Source: Aeromicrobium choanae (GTDB lineage Bacteria; Actinomycetota; Actinomycetes; Propionibacteriales; Nocardioidaceae). From it: DNA of 35,695 nt. Where the stretch lies: assembly GCA_029265505.1 (NCBI GenBank), contig JAJUII010000005.1, positions 1-35,695 on the forward strand, in the 5' to 3' direction. Of the stretch, positions 22,030 to 30,404 are shown piece by piece (within the stretch, counting starts at the first letter, position 1; the number at the start of each line of letters is the position of its first letter). The position numbers and the translations under genes are program-made. The notes under the pieces were generated by a model. The model made no database searches. It saw only the letters and a program-made list of their open reading frames with translations, and was not told the origin of the DNA.

Positions 22030-23020
22030 GTTCCCCGCCGACGTCCCCCGGGCCGCGCTTCCCGGACAGGAGCGCTTCGTCGCTCCGCTGGACCAGACTC
22101 CGCTGGCCGAGACCGGCTCGTTCGACGACAGTCGTCCGCCGGAGAACCAGTGGAAGGAGGCCTGGAAGCGGCTGCGTCGCAACTGGATCTTCTGGGTCTC
22201 GGTCGCCCTCCTGGCCGTCGTGGCCGTGGTGGTCCTGCTCCCGCAGTGGTTCACCGACCTGGACCCGACGTACGCCCAGCTGAGCCGCAGCCTCGAGGGA
22301 CCCAGCGAGGGTCATCCGGCCGGCTTCGACCGCCAGGGCTACGACGTCTTCGCCCGCACGATCTACGGTGCACGCGCCTCGGTCCTGGTGGGCGTGCTCT
22401 GCACCATCGTGGTCACCGTCCCGGGCGTCGTCCTGGGCGCCATGGCCGGCTTCTACGGCGGGTGGCTCGACGCGGTCATCTCCCGGGTGGCCGACGTCTT
22501 CTTCGCCATCCCGCTGCTGCTGGGCGCGCTGGTCGGTCTGGCGATCATCAACAACCTCTGGCCGGATCGCGGCTACTGGGGATCCATCCTCACGGTCGTG
22601 TTCGCGCTGGCGGCGTTCGGCTGGCCGCAGGTGCTGCGCATCGCGCGCGGTGCCGTGCTGGAGGTCAAGAACCTCGAGTTCGTCGACGCCGCACGGGCGA
22701 TCGGCAAGACCCGCCGGGCCAACCTGTGGGGTCACGTCGTGCCGAACTCGCTCGCCCCGGTGATCGTGCTGGCGACCGTCTCGCTGGGCGTGTACATCGT
22801 CGCGGAGGCCACCCTGTCCTTCCTGGGCCTGGGGCTGCCGCCGAGCATCGTCTCGTGGGGCAATGACATCTCCGCGGCCCAGAACCAGGTGCGTTCGGGC
22901 CAGCGACTCGGCGTGATGTTCTGGCCGGCGTCCGCGCTGGCCCTGACCTCGCTGGGCTTCATCCTGCTGGGCGACGCCGTGAGCGACGCCCTCGATCCGA
23001 AGTCGAGGAACCGCGAATGA
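22022..23020 (+). CDS. peptide ABC transporter permease (DppC/OppC family)
   Basis: YDVFARTIYGARASVLVGVLCTIVVTVPGVVLGAMAGFYGGWLDAVISRVADVFFAIPLLL...EFVDAARAIGKTRRANLWGHVVPNSLAPVIV. Confidence 0.94.
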   Translation: MPEFPADVPRAALPGQERFVAPLDQTPLAETGSFDDSRPPENQWKEAWKRLRRNWIFWVSVALLAVVAVVVLLPQWFTDLDPTYAQLSRSLEGPSEGHPAGFDRQGYDVFARTIYGARASVLVGVLCTIVVTVPGVVLGAMAGFYGGWLDAVISRVADVFFAIPLLLGALVGLAIINNLWPDRGYWGSILTVVFALAAFGWPQVLRIARGAVLEVKNLEFVDAARAIGKTRRANLWGHVVPNSLAPVIVLATVSLGVYIVAEATLSFLGLGLPPSIVSWGNDISAAQNQVRSGQRLGVMFWPASALALTSLGFILLGDAVSDALDPKSRNRE

Positions 23021-24723
23021 ACCCCACTCCACTGCTCGAGATCGAGGACCTGCGCGTCGCGTTCCGTCAGGGCAAGCAGGACGTCGAGGCGGTCCGCGGG
23101 GTCAACCTCACGGTGTACCCGGGTCAGACCGTCGCCATCGTCGGCGAGTCCGGCTCCGGCAAGTCCACCACGGCCCATGCCGTCATCGACCTGCTGCCGG
23201 GCACCGGCCGGGTCACCGGTGGCTCGATCCGCTTCGACGGTCGGGAGATCGCCGGCCAGGGCAAGAAGGTCGTCCGAGCCCTGCGCGGCTCGCAGATCGG
23301 CCTGGTGCCCCAGGACCCGATGAGCAACCTGAACCCGCTGGTCAAGGTCGGTCGGCAGATCGCCGAGGTGCTGGTCGCCAACGATGTGGCCAAGGGCAAG
23401 GACGTCGATCGTCGGGTGGTCGAGCTGCTGGAGGAGGCGGGACTGCCGAACGCCGAGCAGCGTGCCAAGCAGTACCCGCACGAGTTCAGCGGCGGCATGC
23501 GTCAGCGCGCCTTGATCGCGATGGGCCTGGCGGCCCGCCCGCGACTGCTGATCGCCGACGAGCCGACCAGCGCCCTCGACGTCACGGTGCAGAAGCAGAT
23601 CCTGGACCACCTCGACGTGCTGACCGACGACCTCGGGGTCGCCGTCTTGCTGATCACGCACGACCTCGGCCTGGCCGCCGAGCGCGCCGACCACCTGGTC
23701 GTCATGTACAAGGGCCAGGTCGTCGAGTCCGGGCCGGCGCTGGAGATCCTGCAGAATCCGCAGCACCCCTACTCCAAGCGGCTCATCTCGAGCGCGCCCT
23801 CGCTGGCCTCGCAGCGACTGCTCGCCCAACAGCGCGCCGAGGTCCGCGAGCAGGCGCAGGAGGCGGCCGAGGAGCTCGCCGAGGAGGTCGCGCACACCGA
23901 TGCGGAGTTCGGCGGCGGAGGAGACTACGTCGTCGAGGCCGAGCACCTGACCAAGGTGTTCACGCTCCCGGGCACGGCCCCGTGGCGCAAGGAGGACTTC
24001 GTCGCCGTCGACGATGTGTCGTTCAGGCTGCGTCGCGGCACCACGACGGCGATCGTGGGGGAGTCCGGCTCCGGAAAGTCGACGGTCGCCCGCATGGTGC
24101 TCGACCTGCTCAAGCCCACCAGCGGCACCGTGAGGTTCGACGGCGTCGACATCTCGACGCTGCGCTCGAAGCAGCAGCAGCTGGCGCTCCGCCGCCAGAT
24201 GCAGCCGGTGTTCCAGAACCCGTACGCCTCGCTCGATCCGCAGTACTCGATCTATCGGGCCATCGAGGAGCCGTTGGCGACGCACAAGATCGGCTCCAAG
24301 GCCGAGCGTGAGGCACGGATCCGCGAGTTGCTGGACAAGGTCTCGCTGCCGTGGTCGGTGTCGCGCCGCTTCCCCAACGAGCTGTCCGGCGGTCAGCGTC
24401 AGCGTGTCGCGATCGCGCGTGCCCTGGCGCTCCAGCCGGAGGTCGTGATCCTCGACGAGGCGGTCAGCGCGCTCGACGTGCTGGTCCAGGCGCAGATCCT
24501 GTCCCTGCTGGCCGAGCTGCAGTCCGAGCTGGGGCTGTCGTACCTGTTCATCACCCACGACCTGGCCGTGGTGCGGCAGATCGCCGACGACGTGCTGGTC
24601 ATGGAGAAGGGTCGGGTCGTGGAGCAGGCCTCGGTCGAGGAGGTGTACGGCTCGCCGCAGCAGGAGTACACGCGGCGGCTGCTCGACGCGATCCCCGGCG
24701 GGAGCATCGAGCTGTCGCGATGA
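23017..24723 (+). CDS. fused dual ATP-binding ABC protein (DppD-DppF type)
   Basis: Two Walker A motifs (GESGSGKST twice) and two signature motifs (FSGGMRQRALIA, LSGGQRQRVAIARAL). Confidence 0.95.
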   Translation: MNPTPLLEIEDLRVAFRQGKQDVEAVRGVNLTVYPGQTVAIVGESGSGKSTTAHAVIDLLPGTGRVTGGSIRFDGREIAGQGKKVVRALRGSQIGLVPQDPMSNLNPLVKVGRQIAEVLVANDVAKGKDVDRRVVELLEEAGLPNAEQRAKQYPHEFSGGMRQRALIAMGLAARPRLLIADEPTSALDVTVQKQILDHLDVLTDDLGVAVLLITHDLGLAAERADHLVVMYKGQVVESGPALEILQNPQHPYSKRLISSAPSLASQRLLAQQRAEVREQAQEAAEELAEEVAHTDAEFGGGGDYVVEAEHLTKVFTLPGTAPWRKEDFVAVDDVSFRLRRGTTTAIVGESGSGKSTVARMVLDLLKPTSGTVRFDGVDISTLRSKQQQLALRRQMQPVFQNPYASLDPQYSIYRAIEEPLATHKIGSKAEREARIRELLDKVSLPWSVSRRFPNELSGGQRQRVAIARALALQPEVVILDEAVSALDVLVQAQILSLLAELQSELGLSYLFITHDLAVVRQIADDVLVMEKGRVVEQASVEEVYGSPQQEYTRRLLDAIPGGSIELSR

Positions 24724-24727
24724 GGGT

Positions 24728-24754
24728 GTTCGAATCGGATTGACCGATTCGAAC
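24728..24754 (+). terminator. inverted repeat immediately after the ABC ATPase gene
   Basis: GTTCGAATCGG (24728-24738) ATTGA CCGATTCGAAC (24744-24754), 11-bp perfect arms. Confidence 0.55.
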
Positions 24755-24768
24755 ATGTGTTCGATCAT
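24740..24768 (+). promoter_or_regulatory. candidate SOS-regulated promoter of imuA
   Basis: -35 TTGACC (24740-24745), 17-bp spacer, -10 GATCAT (24763-24768); predicted +1 at 24775 = A of the imuA ATG. Confidence 0.6.
24749..24764. promoter_or_regulatory. LexA (SOS) box
   Basis: TCGAAC-ATGT-GTTCGA, matches actinobacterial LexA core (T)CGAAC-N4-GTTCG(A); upstream of imuA-imuB-dnaE2. Confidence 0.9.
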
Positions 24769-24774
24769 GGTGGG

Positions 24775-25449
24775 ATGAGCCTTGCCGTCTCGCCTGATCG
24801 GTCCGTGGTCGACGACCTGCGGGACCGCATCGACCGGATGCAGGGTCGTCCCTCGGTCCTGACCCTGCCGACCCATTCGTCGCTGTCGGGTCTGCTCGCC
24901 CTGCAGCCGGGTTCCAGCTATGCCGTCGACGCCACGAGCCTGGCGCTGCTGCTGCTGTCCGGACCGTCCGCCGAGGGGGCCTGGTGCGCCGTCGTGGGGT
25001 CCGATCGGATCGGCCTGGAGGCGGCGGCCGAGTTCGGCGTGGACCTGGACCGCACCGTCTGGGTGCCCGACGCGGGCGCCGACCCGGCCTCGGTCGTCGG
25101 GGCCCTCGTCGATGCGGTCGGGGTGGTCATGGTCGATCGGATCGGGCTGTCCGAGCGTGACGCCGTCCGGCTCCGGGCCCGCCTGCAGCGGCAGCAGTCC
25201 GTGCTCGTGGCGGTGGGCGACTGGCCGCGCGTCGAGGCGCGGCTGCGGCTGCGCGACGTCGTCTGGACCGGCCCGCAGGCCGGTCACGGTCACCTGGTCG
25301 CTCGTCAGGCCACCGTCGAGGTCGAGCGGGGCGGCCGGGTCGTCGGCTCGCGCCGTCTGTGGCTCCCCGCCCCGGAGCTGCAGGTCCGACCGGTCGGTGA
25401 CCCGGCCGGTCTCCACGAGCGGATCCAGCCGGTACGGGAGGTCGGCTGA
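24775..25449 (+). CDS. imuA: ImuA-like (actinobacterial ImuA') mutasome accessory protein
   Basis: First gene of imuA-imuB-dnaE2; MSLAVSPDRSVVDDLRDRIDRMQGRPSVLTLPTHSSLSGLLALQPGSSYAVDATSLALLLL. Start chosen at ATG 24775 rather than GTG 24757, which lies inside the LexA box. Confidence 0.85.
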   Translation: MSLAVSPDRSVVDDLRDRIDRMQGRPSVLTLPTHSSLSGLLALQPGSSYAVDATSLALLLLSGPSAEGAWCAVVGSDRIGLEAAAEFGVDLDRTVWVPDAGADPASVVGALVDAVGVVMVDRIGLSERDAVRLRARLQRQQSVLVAVGDWPRVEARLRLRDVVWTGPQAGHGHLVARQATVEVERGGRVVGSRRLWLPAPELQVRPVGDPAGLHERIQPVREVG

Positions 25450-26993
25450 TGCGCACGCTGGTGGTGTGGGTGCCCGACTGGCCCGCGCTGGTCCGTCAGG
25501 TCGAGCACGGGGCGGCGGCGCTCGCGGTGCTCGACCGCGGTGCCGTCCTGGCTTGCACGCCCCCGGCGCGGGCACGGGGAGTCCGGCGGGGGATGCGGCG
25601 TCGGGAGGCCCAGTCGCGCTGTCCCGAGCTCGTGGTGTGCGAGCACCGTCCCGAGGCGGACGCCGCGGCGTTCGAGCAGGTGCTGGGTGCGCTGGAGGAG
25701 ATGACGCCGGGGGTGGCGCCGTTGCGTCCCGGGCTGTGCGCGCTGCCGGTGCCCGAGCGCTTCTACGGCGGGGAGACCGAGGCGGCGGCCGTGATCGCCG
25801 AGCGGCTGGTCGAGCTGGGCGTCTGGGACGTGCGGTTCGGCATCGCCGACGGCGTCTTCGTCGCCGAGCTGGCCGCCCGTCGGGCATCGGCCCAGGACTG
25901 CGTCATCGTGCCCCGCGGGGGCGACGCCGACTTCCTGCGGGACCTGCCGATCGAGATGCTCGACGTGCCCGTGGTCGCGGGGGAGGGCGGGGCCGACGTC
26001 GATCCGGTGACGGTGCTGCGCCGGCTCGGGCTGCGTCGCATCGGTGACTTCGCGGCCCTGTCGGCGGCCGACGTCGTGGCCCGGTTCGGGGCGCGCGGCG
26101 CGCTGCTGCATCGCTGGGCGCGCGGCGAGCAGGTGCGCTCGATCGCGCGACGTCGGCCGCCGGCCGATCTCACCGCGGAGGTGGCGTTCGAGCCGGCTCT
26201 CGAGCGGGCCGAGGCGGTGGTGTTCAGCGCCCGCCGCGCACTGGAGGACTTCGTCGGCGGTCTCGACCGGGCGGGGATGATCTGCGCGACGCTGCGCCTC
26301 GAGGTCGACGCCCAGGTCGAGGGTCGAGAGCGGACGGTGGGCCGCGTCTGGCGGCACCCGCGGTGGTTCTCCTCCGGGGACGTGCTCGATCGGCTGCGCT
26401 GGCAGCTGGCCGCCGACCCGCCCGGAGGGCCGGTCGTCGCCGTGCGCTGCGTGCCGGTCGAGGTCGAGCCGTGGGCCGGACACGGGGAGAGCCTCTTCGG
26501 CGGCGGTCCCGACGAGCAGGTCGAGCGGTCGGTCGCGCGGGTGCAGGCCCTCGTCGGTCCCGAGGGGGTCCGGTCGGTCGGACTGCAGGGTGGTCGCGAC
26601 CCGCGGGAGCGGGCTCTGTCGGCGCCTTGGGGGGAGCGGCTCGCCCCGGAGCGACCGCTCGATCGGCCGTGGCCCGGCCGGGTGCCGCCACCGGCTCCGG
26701 CGACCGTGTTCGCCGAGCCTCGACCCGCCGAGGTGGTCGGGGCCGAGGGCCTGCCGGTCGCGGTCAGTGGCCGCGGTGCTCTGTCGGGAGTGCCGACGCG
26801 CTTCCGCGCGACCGCGGATCTGGGGTGGCAGCCGGTCGCGGCGTGGGCCGGTCCGTGGCCCGCCGACGAGCGCTGGTGGGACGAGGCCGCCGCACGCCGG
26901 ATCGCCCGCTTCCAAGTGGTCGGTGTCGACGGCAGCGCCTGGCTCATGGTCGTCGAGAACGGCCACTGGTGGACGGAGGCGCGCTATGACTGA
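25449..26993 (+). CDS. imuB: ImuB, Y-family polymerase-like mutasome protein
   Basis: MRTLVVWVPDWPALVRQ...APLRPGLCALPVPERFYGGETEAAAVIAERLVELGVWDVRFGIADGVFVAELAAR...LRRLGLRRIGDFAALSAADVVARFG; overlaps the imuA stop. Confidence 0.92.
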   Translation: MRTLVVWVPDWPALVRQVEHGAAALAVLDRGAVLACTPPARARGVRRGMRRREAQSRCPELVVCEHRPEADAAAFEQVLGALEEMTPGVAPLRPGLCALPVPERFYGGETEAAAVIAERLVELGVWDVRFGIADGVFVAELAARRASAQDCVIVPRGGDADFLRDLPIEMLDVPVVAGEGGADVDPVTVLRRLGLRRIGDFAALSAADVVARFGARGALLHRWARGEQVRSIARRRPPADLTAEVAFEPALERAEAVVFSARRALEDFVGGLDRAGMICATLRLEVDAQVEGRERTVGRVWRHPRWFSSGDVLDRLRWQLAADPPGGPVVAVRCVPVEVEPWAGHGESLFGGGPDEQVERSVARVQALVGPEGVRSVGLQGGRDPRERALSAPWGERLAPERPLDRPWPGRVPPPAPATVFAEPRPAEVVGAEGLPVAVSGRGALSGVPTRFRATADLGWQPVAAWAGPWPADERWWDEAAARRIARFQVVGVDGSAWLMVVENGHWWTEARYD

Positions 26994-27051
26994 CGTCGCT
27001 CGACTCGTGCTCGGCGCGCCGCCATCACCGGGGACGAGGGGTGAGGCCTGA
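26986..27051 (+). CDS. 21-codon bridging ORF between imuB and dnaE2 (putative translational coupling ORF)
   Basis: ATG 26986 overlaps the 3' end of imuB; encodes MTDVARLVLGAPPSPGTRGEA; TGA (27049-27051) overlaps the dnaE2 ATG; SD GGAGG at 26975-26979, 6 nt before ATG. Confidence 0.5.
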   Translation: MTDVARLVLGAPPSPGTRGEA

Positions 27052-30000
27052 TGGGCTGGCACAACCCCGACATCTCCTGGCGCGAGCTGGAGGCGCGGCT
27101 GTCGGGGCGCTGGAAGCCCGGACGGCGTCTGCCCGACGGCGGGGACGGTCCGGCGTTCTCGCGCAAGCGCGGTCCCTACGCAGCCCCGCAGGTGCCGTCG
27201 CCGCCGGATGAGGCGGTGCCGTACGCCGAGCTGCACTGCCACAGCAACCACAGCCTGCTCGACGGCGCGAGCCATCCCGAGACCCTCGTGCGTGAGGCCG
27301 TGCGGCTGGGGCTGCACGCCCTCGCGCTGACCGACCACGACGGCTTCGGCGGCGCCGCTCGGTTCGCCGAGGCGGCGCGTCTGCACGGCCTGCGCACGAT
27401 CTACGGCGCCGAGCTGACCCTGGCCGGGACGAGTCGGACCGGGGACCCCGATCCCGAGGGCGACCACCTGCTGGTGCTGGCGCGCGGGGTCGAGGGGTAC
27501 CACGCGCTCGCCGCGGCGATCACCGACGCGAATCTGGCCGGGGACGAGAAGGGCCGACCTCGGTACGACCTCGACGATCTGGTCGATCGGGGCCGTGGCC
27601 GATGGATCGTGCTCAGCGGCTGCCGCAAGGGGTGGGCCCGCCGCGAGGGGATCGCGGGGCTGCGTCGCCTGGTCGACCTGTTCGGGGCCGAGAACGTCGT
27701 CGTCGAGCTGACCGATCAGGGAATGCCCGGCGACGGCCCGGCCAACGAGGCCCTGGCCGGCTGGGCGGCCGAGTGCGGCCTGCCGACCGTCGCGACGGGC
27801 AACGTCCACGCGGCCCGGCCCGGCGAGGTGCGGCTGGCCCAGGCGTTCGCGGCGGTGCGGGCACGACGCAGTCTGGCCGAGATCGACGGCTGGCTCGCGC
27901 CGCCGGCGTACCTGCGGTCGGGAGCCGAGATGGCCCGGCGCTTCGCCCGGTGGCCCGGCGCGGTGGCGCGCACGGTGGAGGTCGCGGACGCCTGCGCGTT
28001 CGACCTGCGCAAGGCCTCGCCGGCCCTGCCGAAGCAGAAGGTCCCCGCCGGGCACACTCCGATGAGCTGGTTGCGCGAGCTGGTGCGTCGTGGTGCCGAC
28101 CGCCTGTACGCACACTGTCGTGACGAGGCCGAGCGGCGTCTGCAGCGCGAGCTGGCGGTCATCGAGGACAAGGACTTCGCCGGCTACTTCCTCATCGTCC
28201 ACGACATCGTGGCGTACGCCCGCAGTCGAGGGATCCTGTGCCAGGGTCGCGGCTCGGCGGCGAACTCGGCGGTCTGCTACGCGCTGGGGATCACCGCGGT
28301 GGACTCGATCAAGTACGGCCTGCCCTTCGAGCGCTTCCTGTCGGCGACTCGCGATGAGGAGCCCGACATCGACGTGGACTTCGACTCCGACCGTCGTGAG
28401 GAGGTCATCCAGTGGGTCTACCGGACCTACGGGCGGCGCAACGCGGCCCAGGTCTGCAACGTCATCAGCTACCGGCCGCGGTCCGCGGTGCGCGACATGG
28501 CGCGGGCGCTGGGGTACACGGTGGGCCAGCAGGACGCGTGGAGCAAGCGGGTCGACTCGTGGTCGACGATCCGGGCCGACGAGGAGGGCGCGATCCCCGA
28601 GGACGTGGTGCGGCTGGCCGAGCAGGCCATGACGGCGCCGCGACATCGGGGCATCCATTCAGGTGGGATGGTGCTGACCGAGCGACCGGTCGGGGAGGTC
28701 GTGCCGATCGAGCGGGCCCGGATGCCCGGCCGGACGGTTCTGCAGTGGGACAAGGACGACTGCGCCTACATGGGGCTGGTCAAGTTCGACCTGCTCGGCC
28801 TGGGCATGCTCGGCGCGATCCAGCACACCTTCGACATCGTGCGCGAGCGGGTGGGGGAGGAGTGGACGCTCGCCACGATCCCCAAGGAGGAGCAGGGGGT
28901 CTACGACATGCTGTGCCGCGCCGACTCGATCGGGGTGTTCCAGGTCGAGAGTCGGGCGCAGATCGGCACCCTGCCCCGGCTGCGGCCGCGGTGCTTCTAC
29001 GACCTGGTCATCGAGATCGCCCTGATCCGGCCCGGGCCGATCCAGGGCGGAGCGGTCCACCCGTACATCCGGCGCAAGCTGGGCGAGGAGCCGATCACCT
29101 ATCCGCACCCGCTGCTCGAGCCGGTGCTCGAGCGCACCCTGGGGGTGCCGCTGTTCCAGGAGCAGCTGATGCAGATCGCGATGGTGGTGGGCGACTGCAC
29201 GGGTGACGAGGCCGATCTGCTGCGTCGTGCGATGGGCTCCAAGCGCGGGGTCGAGAAGATCGACCGGCTGCGCGACCGGCTCTACCGGGGGATGGCGGAC
29301 AAGGGCATCACCGGCGAGGTGGCCGACGACATCTATGCGCGCATCGAGGCGTTCGCCAACTTCGGGTTCGCCGAGAGTCACGCGATCAGCTTCGCCCTGC
29401 TCGTCTACGCCAGCAGCTGGCTCAAGCTGCACCATCCGGCGGCGTTCCTCGCGGGGCTGCTGCGCGCCCAGCCGATGGGGTTCTACTCGCCCCAGTCGCT
29501 GGTGGCCGATGCTCGTCGTCACGGAGTGCAGGTGCTGCGGCCCTCTCTGCGGCACTCGCAGGTCCACGCCGATCTCGAGCCGCTGGGCGAGACGACCGGG
29601 CCCACGGGGGATCCGGCCTGCACGGCCCGCGAGCAGCCTCCGGTGGCGCCGTTCGACCCCGCGGCGCCGCCCGATCACGAGCGCCATCGGCGCGACGGGC
29701 ACCATGCGGTCCGGTTGGGACTGACCTCGGTCAAGGGGATCGGGGTGGCCGACGCCGAGCGCATCGTCGCAGCCCGGCGCGAGCGCCCGTTCGCGGACAT
29801 GGCCGACGTCATCCGTCGCTGCGGACTCACCCGGGCTCAGCAGGAGCAGCTCGCCACCGCGGGCGCGTTCGACGACTTCGGCCTGTCCCGTCGTCAGGCG
29901 ATCTGGAACGCGGGCCACACCGACGGGGCGGACCGGCTGCCGGGGACGGCGATCGTGACGCCGCCGCCGATGCTGCCGGGCATGAGCGAGGTCGAGGTCA

Positions 30001-30404
30001 CGCTGGCCGACCTGGAGGCGACGCAGATCTCGCCACGCGAGCATCCCTTCGAGCACCTGCGCCCGATGCTCGACGAGCGAGGGATCCTGCCGGTCGAGGG
30101 ACTGGCGCGGCACGAGCCGGGCCGCCGGATCCTGGTGGCCGGACTGATCACCCATCGGCAGCGCCCCTACACCGCCGGTGGGGTGACCTTCCTCAACCTC
30201 GAGGACGAGACCGGGATGCTCAACGTGGTGGTGTTCGACGCGGTGTGGCAGCGCCACCGTGCGGTCGCCCGCAGCAGCGCGGCGGTGGTGGTCCGCGGAC
30301 GGCTGGAGCACCAGCAGGGCGCGGTCAACCTCGTGGCCGAGGTCATCGAGCCGCTCCTGGACCCGGCGGTGCCGGCGGGGCACCGCTCTCGGGACTTCCG
30401 GTGA
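27051..30404 (+). CDS. dnaE2: error-prone DNA polymerase DnaE2
   Basis: PHP domain YAELHCHSNHSLLDGASHPETLVREAVRLGLHALALTDHDGFGG; C-family pol core RGSAANSAVCYALGITAVDSIKYGLPFERFLSATRDEEPDIDVDFDSDRREEVIQWVY; OB-fold GVTFLNLEDETGMLNVVVF. Confidence 0.96.
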   Translation: MGWHNPDISWRELEARLSGRWKPGRRLPDGGDGPAFSRKRGPYAAPQVPSPPDEAVPYAELHCHSNHSLLDGASHPETLVREAVRLGLHALALTDHDGFGGAARFAEAARLHGLRTIYGAELTLAGTSRTGDPDPEGDHLLVLARGVEGYHALAAAITDANLAGDEKGRPRYDLDDLVDRGRGRWIVLSGCRKGWARREGIAGLRRLVDLFGAENVVVELTDQGMPGDGPANEALAGWAAECGLPTVATGNVHAARPGEVRLAQAFAAVRARRSLAEIDGWLAPPAYLRSGAEMARRFARWPGAVARTVEVADACAFDLRKASPALPKQKVPAGHTPMSWLRELVRRGADRLYAHCRDEAERRLQRELAVIEDKDFAGYFLIVHDIVAYARSRGILCQGRGSAANSAVCYALGITAVDSIKYGLPFERFLSATRDEEPDIDVDFDSDRREEVIQWVYRTYGRRNAAQVCNVISYRPRSAVRDMARALGYTVGQQDAWSKRVDSWSTIRADEEGAIPEDVVRLAEQAMTAPRHRGIHSGGMVLTERPVGEVVPIERARMPGRTVLQWDKDDCAYMGLVKFDLLGLGMLGAIQHTFDIVRERVGEEWTLATIPKEEQGVYDMLCRADSIGVFQVESRAQIGTLPRLRPRCFYDLVIEIALIRPGPIQGGAVHPYIRRKLGEEPITYPHPLLEPVLERTLGVPLFQEQLMQIAMVVGDCTGDEADLLRRAMGSKRGVEKIDRLRDRLYRGMADKGITGEVADDIYARIEAFANFGFAESHAISFALLVYASSWLKLHHPAAFLAGLLRAQPMGFYSPQSLVADARRHGVQVLRPSLRHSQVHADLEPLGETTGPTGDPACTAREQPPVAPFDPAAPPDHERHRRDGHHAVRLGLTSVKGIGVADAERIVAARRERPFADMADVIRRCGLTRAQQEQLATAGAFDDFGLSRRQAIWNAGHTDGADRLPGTAIVTPPPMLPGMSEVEVTLADLEATQISPREHPFEHLRPMLDERGILPVEGLARHEPGRRILVAGLITHRQRPYTAGGVTFLNLEDETGMLNVVVFDAVWQRHRAVARSSAAVVVRGRLEHQQGAVNLVAEVIEPLLDPAVPAGHRSRDFR

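Follow-up and report, generated by a model that had tools for sequence, protein, structure and literature searches.

A predicted LexA operator inside the spacer of a putatively leaderless imuA' promoter in Aeromicrobium, overlapped by a lineage-restricted palindrome

The imuA', imuB and dnaE2 genes considered here lie in a 35,695-nucleotide (nt) stretch of DNA from Aeromicrobium choanae, of the family Nocardioidaceae (contig JAJUII010000005.1 of GenBank assembly GCA_029265505.1, positions 1 to 35,695, hereafter the window), which belongs to a draft genome of 2.3 Mb in 226 contigs that is 88% complete. The short region that precedes imuA' is best read, with a probability of about 0.85, as an ordinary LexA-repressed leaderless SOS promoter of an imuA'-imuB-dnaE2 operon, to which an inverted repeat lying over the -35 element would have been added specifically in the lineage of the window. 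Two things are directly visible, a promoter in which every spacing is conserved and a palindrome that is restricted to one lineage.

The promoter is built around the elements TTGACC and GATCAT, which are separated by 17 nt and represent the only sigma70-like match in a scan of 12 kb, where 0.3 would be expected. The SOS box TCGAACATGTGTTCGA sits inside this spacer and reaches two bases into the -10; it is the sole site in the window without mismatch to TCGAAC-N4-GTTCGA, and the assembly has just one other perfect site, on contig 169. GATCAT is an actinobacterial -10 of the TANNNT type whose first base is occupied by the box and, when its last T is taken as position -7, the R of the RTG start codon (ATG or GTG) falls exactly at +1. 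All these elements, together with the imuA' ATG that begins 10 nt past the box, had been placed by an initial annotation of the window, whose sequences and coordinates proved exact to the base. The geometry suggests how the promoter would operate. LexA bound to its operator would cover the spacer as well as the margin of the -10, directly blocking RNA polymerase; once RecA filaments trigger LexA cleavage, RNA polymerase would bind TTGACC/GATCAT and start transcription at the A of the imuA' ATG, generating a leaderless mRNA.

The evidence that carries this reading comes from comparison. imuA' was found in 48 of 49 Aeromicrobium genomes, and usable upstream DNA was available at 47 loci (window included). 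The distance from TTGAC to the SOS box is 4 nt in 44 of these loci and 5 nt in the other three, the box has no mismatch in 46/47 (one mismatch in the remaining locus), a GANNNT -10 overlaps its end in all 47, and an in-frame ATG or GTG follows it after 10 nt in 44/47 and after 9 nt in 3/47. The promoter register thus stays fixed while the remaining upstream DNA diverges widely. Outside the genus, where 46 loci of named genera with a box were compared, the start codon lies exactly 10 nt past the box in 40 and 9 nt past it in four, with only a few ATG or GTG codons at each of the other offsets, which is the background; the 10-nt register is seen in Kribbella, Nocardioides, Microlunatus, Leifsonia, Rathayibacter, Mycetocola and others. 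Among 123 loci sampled across the class, 62 carry an RTG 9-11 nt past the box (50 at 10, seven at 9 and five at 11), and in 60 of these 62 the second base of the -10 is A and the sixth is T. The LexA operator therefore overlaps the core promoter at all 47 Aeromicrobium orthologues and at many loci in other families, and the RTG occupies the expected +1 at a fixed distance from the -10. Since nothing would hold a leadered gene to one particular distance, this spacing is strong indirect evidence of leaderless transcription, and it strongly supports the earlier proposal of a LexA operator in the spacer of a promoter with a leaderless start. The same proposal had presented the compact layout as special to this locus, which is not the case: an SOS box in the spacer of a promoter predicted to be leaderless is the usual imuA' arrangement both in Aeromicrobium and in several further families. 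No earlier description of a fixed 10-nt rule was found in the literature searched, which does not extend to key older papers.

The individual ingredients have good precedents. The imuA'-imuB/dnaE2 genes are known mycobacterial SOS targets (PMC8151990, PMC10421592), and the window shares with the mycobacterial cassette (Rv3395c family) both the curated ImuA' family and the operator consensus. The mycobacterial cassette is split (PMC10421592), whereas the three genes are adjacent in the window and dnaE2 lacks a separate box. Leaderless mRNAs of Actinomycetota have an RTG at +1 and a -10 of TANNNT type (PMC3898074, PMC4633059), two features that are shared by imuA' in the window, where the start is deduced from the conserved spacing. 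A further parallel is lexA of M. tuberculosis, a different gene, which is leaderless and LexA-controlled, with coinciding starts of transcription and translation (PMC2897130), as is predicted for imuA' here. The geometry is another matter. In family f5, which is probably Mycobacteriaceae, no RTG was found 9-11 nt past the box in any of the 29 loci with a box, the candidate imuA' starts lying mostly 20-45 nt from it and never at 10 nt as in the window. The mycobacterial precedent invoked in the initial annotation therefore holds for LexA control of these genes, not for the imuA' geometry seen here. The f5 loci L178-L204 share a different conserved layout, in which GTTTACTCG precedes a box such as TCGAACATACATTCGA by about 5 nt, a TANNNT-like stretch falls within the box and starts are often 36 nt downstream. 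In families f19 and f38 of the class-wide sample (L193, L207-L219, L226 and others), no imuA' SOS box with two mismatches or fewer was found in the upstream stretch searched, at loci whose ends and start codons were not fully checked, which suggests that imuA' may be under other control there or have an altered operator.

Nor is the compact layout a general property of SOS genes in this genome. A LexA-like protein is encoded on contig 210 (G000:C210, L065), and an SOS-like box lies upstream of its gene, some 31 nt ahead of the ATG, so the arrangement described above belongs to imuA' rather than to all SOS genes of this genome and is not shared by the genome's own lexA. Boxes with one mismatch occur on contig 210, before lexA and a divergent LysM-like gene, and on contig 179 near an apparent recA region, these three having been recognised by reading translations rather than by family search. 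The lexA-like and LysM-like genes at L065 share an intergenic region with two near-perfect boxes (locus positions 1501 and 1580), and the LysM-like gene is a possible SOS cell-division inhibitor. As for the window itself, three GTTCGA/TCGAAC half-sites are present next to imuA', as had been pointed out together with the idea that the first one (24728) might extend LexA occupancy. LexA dimers require half-sites spaced by four nucleotides, and no second pair with this spacing exists: GTTCGA at 24728 mismatches at 6 of 12 positions in both possible registers. This half-site, which lacks a partner, cannot form a second LexA site, and its register makes extended occupancy unlikely.

The promoter serves a compact locus (Table 1), in which the gene order is double dipeptide-type ATP-binding cassette (ABC) transporter ATPase, imuA', imuB and dnaE2, all on the (+) strand. 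The ATPase ends with a TGA at 24721-24723, leaving 51 nt before the imuA' ATG. The three downstream products all belong to the families expected of an ImuA'/ImuB/DnaE2 mutasome operon, NF058630 being described as the DnaE2-dependent mutagenesis accessory factor ImuA'. The start of imuB shares one base with the imuA' stop (its last base), and 57 nt separate imuB from dnaE2. A scan of the region upstream of dnaE2 revealed no LexA box (the best candidate has 6 mismatches), and dnaE2 is therefore probably in the same operon as imuA'-imuB. In most of the Aeromicrobium loci, imuA' is preceded by a homologue of the transporter ATPase; the spacer between the two varies and often contains strong hairpins.

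Table 1. Promoter elements, inverted repeat and genes at the imuA' locus (positions in the window)
Feature	Position	Strand	Basis
Double-domain dipeptide/oligopeptide-type ABC transporter ATPase	23017..24723	+	ABC_tran in two stretches plus oligo_HPY; dipeptide ATPase subfamily models
Perfect 12-bp inverted repeat TGTTCGAATCGG-ATTGA-CCGATTCGAACA	24727..24755	+	-35 and left LexA half-site lie in its loop and right arm
-35 TTGACC	24740..24745	+	TTGAC in 47/47 Aeromicrobium loci; promoter scan
LexA operator (SOS box) TCGAAC-ATGT-GTTCGA	24749..24764	+	0 mismatches to TCGAAC-N4-GTTCGA
-10 GATCAT	24763..24768	+	GANNNT in 47/47 Aeromicrobium loci
imuA' start ATG (predicted +1), 10 nt past SOS box	24775..24777	+	Conserved spacing
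imuA'	24775..25449	+	NCBIfam NF058630 repair_Rv3395c, 130.7 bits (cut-off 65)
imuB (Y-family-like accessory protein)	25449..26993	+	Pfam IMS, 46.6 bits (above cut-off); gene context
dnaE2 (error-prone polymerase)	27051..30404	+	NF004225 error-prone DNA polymerase, 1422.7 bits (above cut-off)

The remaining feature of the region is the inverted repeat, initially described as 11 base pairs (bp) long, which is indeed present and actually measures 12 bp (arms 24727-24738 and 24744-24755, with a 5-nt loop), starting 4 nt past the transporter stop codon. The segment 24715-24780 folds as RNA with a predicted energy of -27.3 kcal/mol (z -3.5), and -19.8 kcal/mol is predicted for the stem. The stem is not a chance product: when the promoter was held fixed and the upstream bases were randomised at the composition of the genus, stems of at least 12 bp were never obtained in 400,000 simulations and stems of at least 11 bp only four times. 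It is also confined to this lineage, as at the other 46 Aeromicrobium loci no perfect stem that reaches the left half-site exceeds 6 bp. The hairpin is not a canonical intrinsic terminator, because there is no T-run (U-tract), the bases after the stem being TGTGTTCG, and it is absent from the list returned by the terminator scan. A tRNA relic, hinted at by TTCGAAT, was likewise rejected since there is no tRNA in the window. Lying upstream of the predicted +1, the hairpin would not be in the imuA' mRNA and could therefore act only in transporter read-through RNA or as DNA.

A search for the palindrome at up to 3 mismatches revealed no other copy in the genome of the window and a single, diverged one in the genus, which disposes of a repeated element or the operator of a regulon. 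That related site, with 3 mismatches, is the imuA' promoter of Aeromicrobium G045 (L021), where two of 11 pairs of the stem are broken and one is G-U, its predicted energy is -7.0 kcal/mol and no pair shows a compensatory change. The left arm in G045 is formed by the last codons of a TetR-family gene (GTG CTC GAA CCG GAT TGA); the window reads GTG TTC GAA TCG GAT TGA at the same place, where there is no tetR gene. In G045 (C1, ~2021820-2021846), the tetR stop codon lies inside the imuA' -35 (TTGAC), the last codons of one gene being part of the SOS promoter of another. Homologues of this tetR gene were not found upstream of imuA' in other Aeromicrobium loci. The left arm in the window may be a relic of a tetR gene, or the reverse; seven members of the clade form a polytomy in the ImuA' tree, which is compatible either with loss of tetR in the window or with its gain in G045.

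How well does a LexA-repressed leaderless promoter withstand the alternatives? Three points weigh against it: (i) GATCAT matches TANNNT weakly, with a G at the first position, (ii) a transcript begun farther upstream could be translated from an in-frame GTG at 24757 and (iii) the Aeromicrobium loci are related, which means that 47/47 does not represent 47 independent observations. The corresponding rival is that imuA' is translated from a leadered transcript begun upstream of the box, by transporter read-through or from another promoter, the fixed spacing reflecting only the overlap of the box with the -10. We consider this highly improbable. A GGTGGG stretch does immediately precede the ATG, and the transporter genes do run in the same direction, but the bases before the start codon vary from locus to locus with no constant purine-rich motif, and the box-to-start distance stays at 9-11 nt across many families, although a leadered gene would be free of this constraint. 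Equally far-fetched is the notion that the 29-bp perfect palindrome is the operator of a second dimeric regulator that would occlude the -35: a dimeric repressor would match its length and symmetry, the -35 lies within it and a TetR-family gene is directly upstream in G045, but the window has no regulator gene next to it and the search mentioned above uncovered only the diverged G045 site.

The other two explanations concern the hairpin. In the composite arrangement put forward in the initial annotation, the hairpin would terminate transporter transcription while its 3' arm formed part of the LexA operator, physically coupling termination and SOS control. The stem is strong, non-random and close to the transporter stop; moreover, only 16 nt separate this stop from the -35, which leaves no room for another terminator, and a terminator role is therefore possible, though unproven. 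Tail-less terminators have been claimed in mycobacteria, although the need for a U-tract and their termination activity are disputed (PMC12288462); like these 'I-shaped' stem-loops, which according to a review have no poly-U and lie no more than 50 bp from a stop codon (PMC12288462), the window stem directly follows a gene, yet it differs from them in overlapping a downstream promoter and in not being conserved (1/47 loci). Furthermore, the closest relatives with the transporter upstream (L017 and L018) have a separate 17-18-bp hairpin located 34-73 nt before the box, showing that the transcription units can be separated without sharing the operator, several other Aeromicrobium loci lack a strong hairpin within 160 nt, and the similar arms of L021 have no transporter ATPase upstream of them. 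With a stem that lacks a U-tract, occurs at one locus and resembles a tetR 3' end in one relative, a dual terminator/operator function is unproven and unlikely. Less likely still is a full switch, in which read-through RNA would fold (or DNA extrude) at the -35 and the shared half-site to end upstream transcription and protect the SOS operon from leakage, with LexA on the shared half-site in its turn affecting termination. Far better placed, at not quite even odds, is an origin of the hairpin as a relic or accident, which is compatible with a LexA-repressed leaderless promoter: the left arm would have come from, or become, a tetR 3' end, and a near-palindrome would later have been perfected, for example by template switching, without any selected function. 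The match between the tetR end and the left arm, and a G045 stem weakened without compensation, are consistent with this origin; the polytomy, which hides the direction of change, and the expectation that a perfect 12-bp stem decays without selection speak against it. On balance, no strong role is proposed for the hairpin, which is at most a local curiosity.

In conclusion, all the components of this LexA-controlled promoter were already known, and what the comparison adds is the fixed 10-nt tie between the imuA' start and the SOS box in many families of Actinomycetes. This tie offers a straightforward way to correct imuA' start codons and a caution against transferring mycobacterial promoter details to other actinobacteria, and it strongly predicts that, outside mycobacteria, translation of the SOS mutasome operon would be leaderless.
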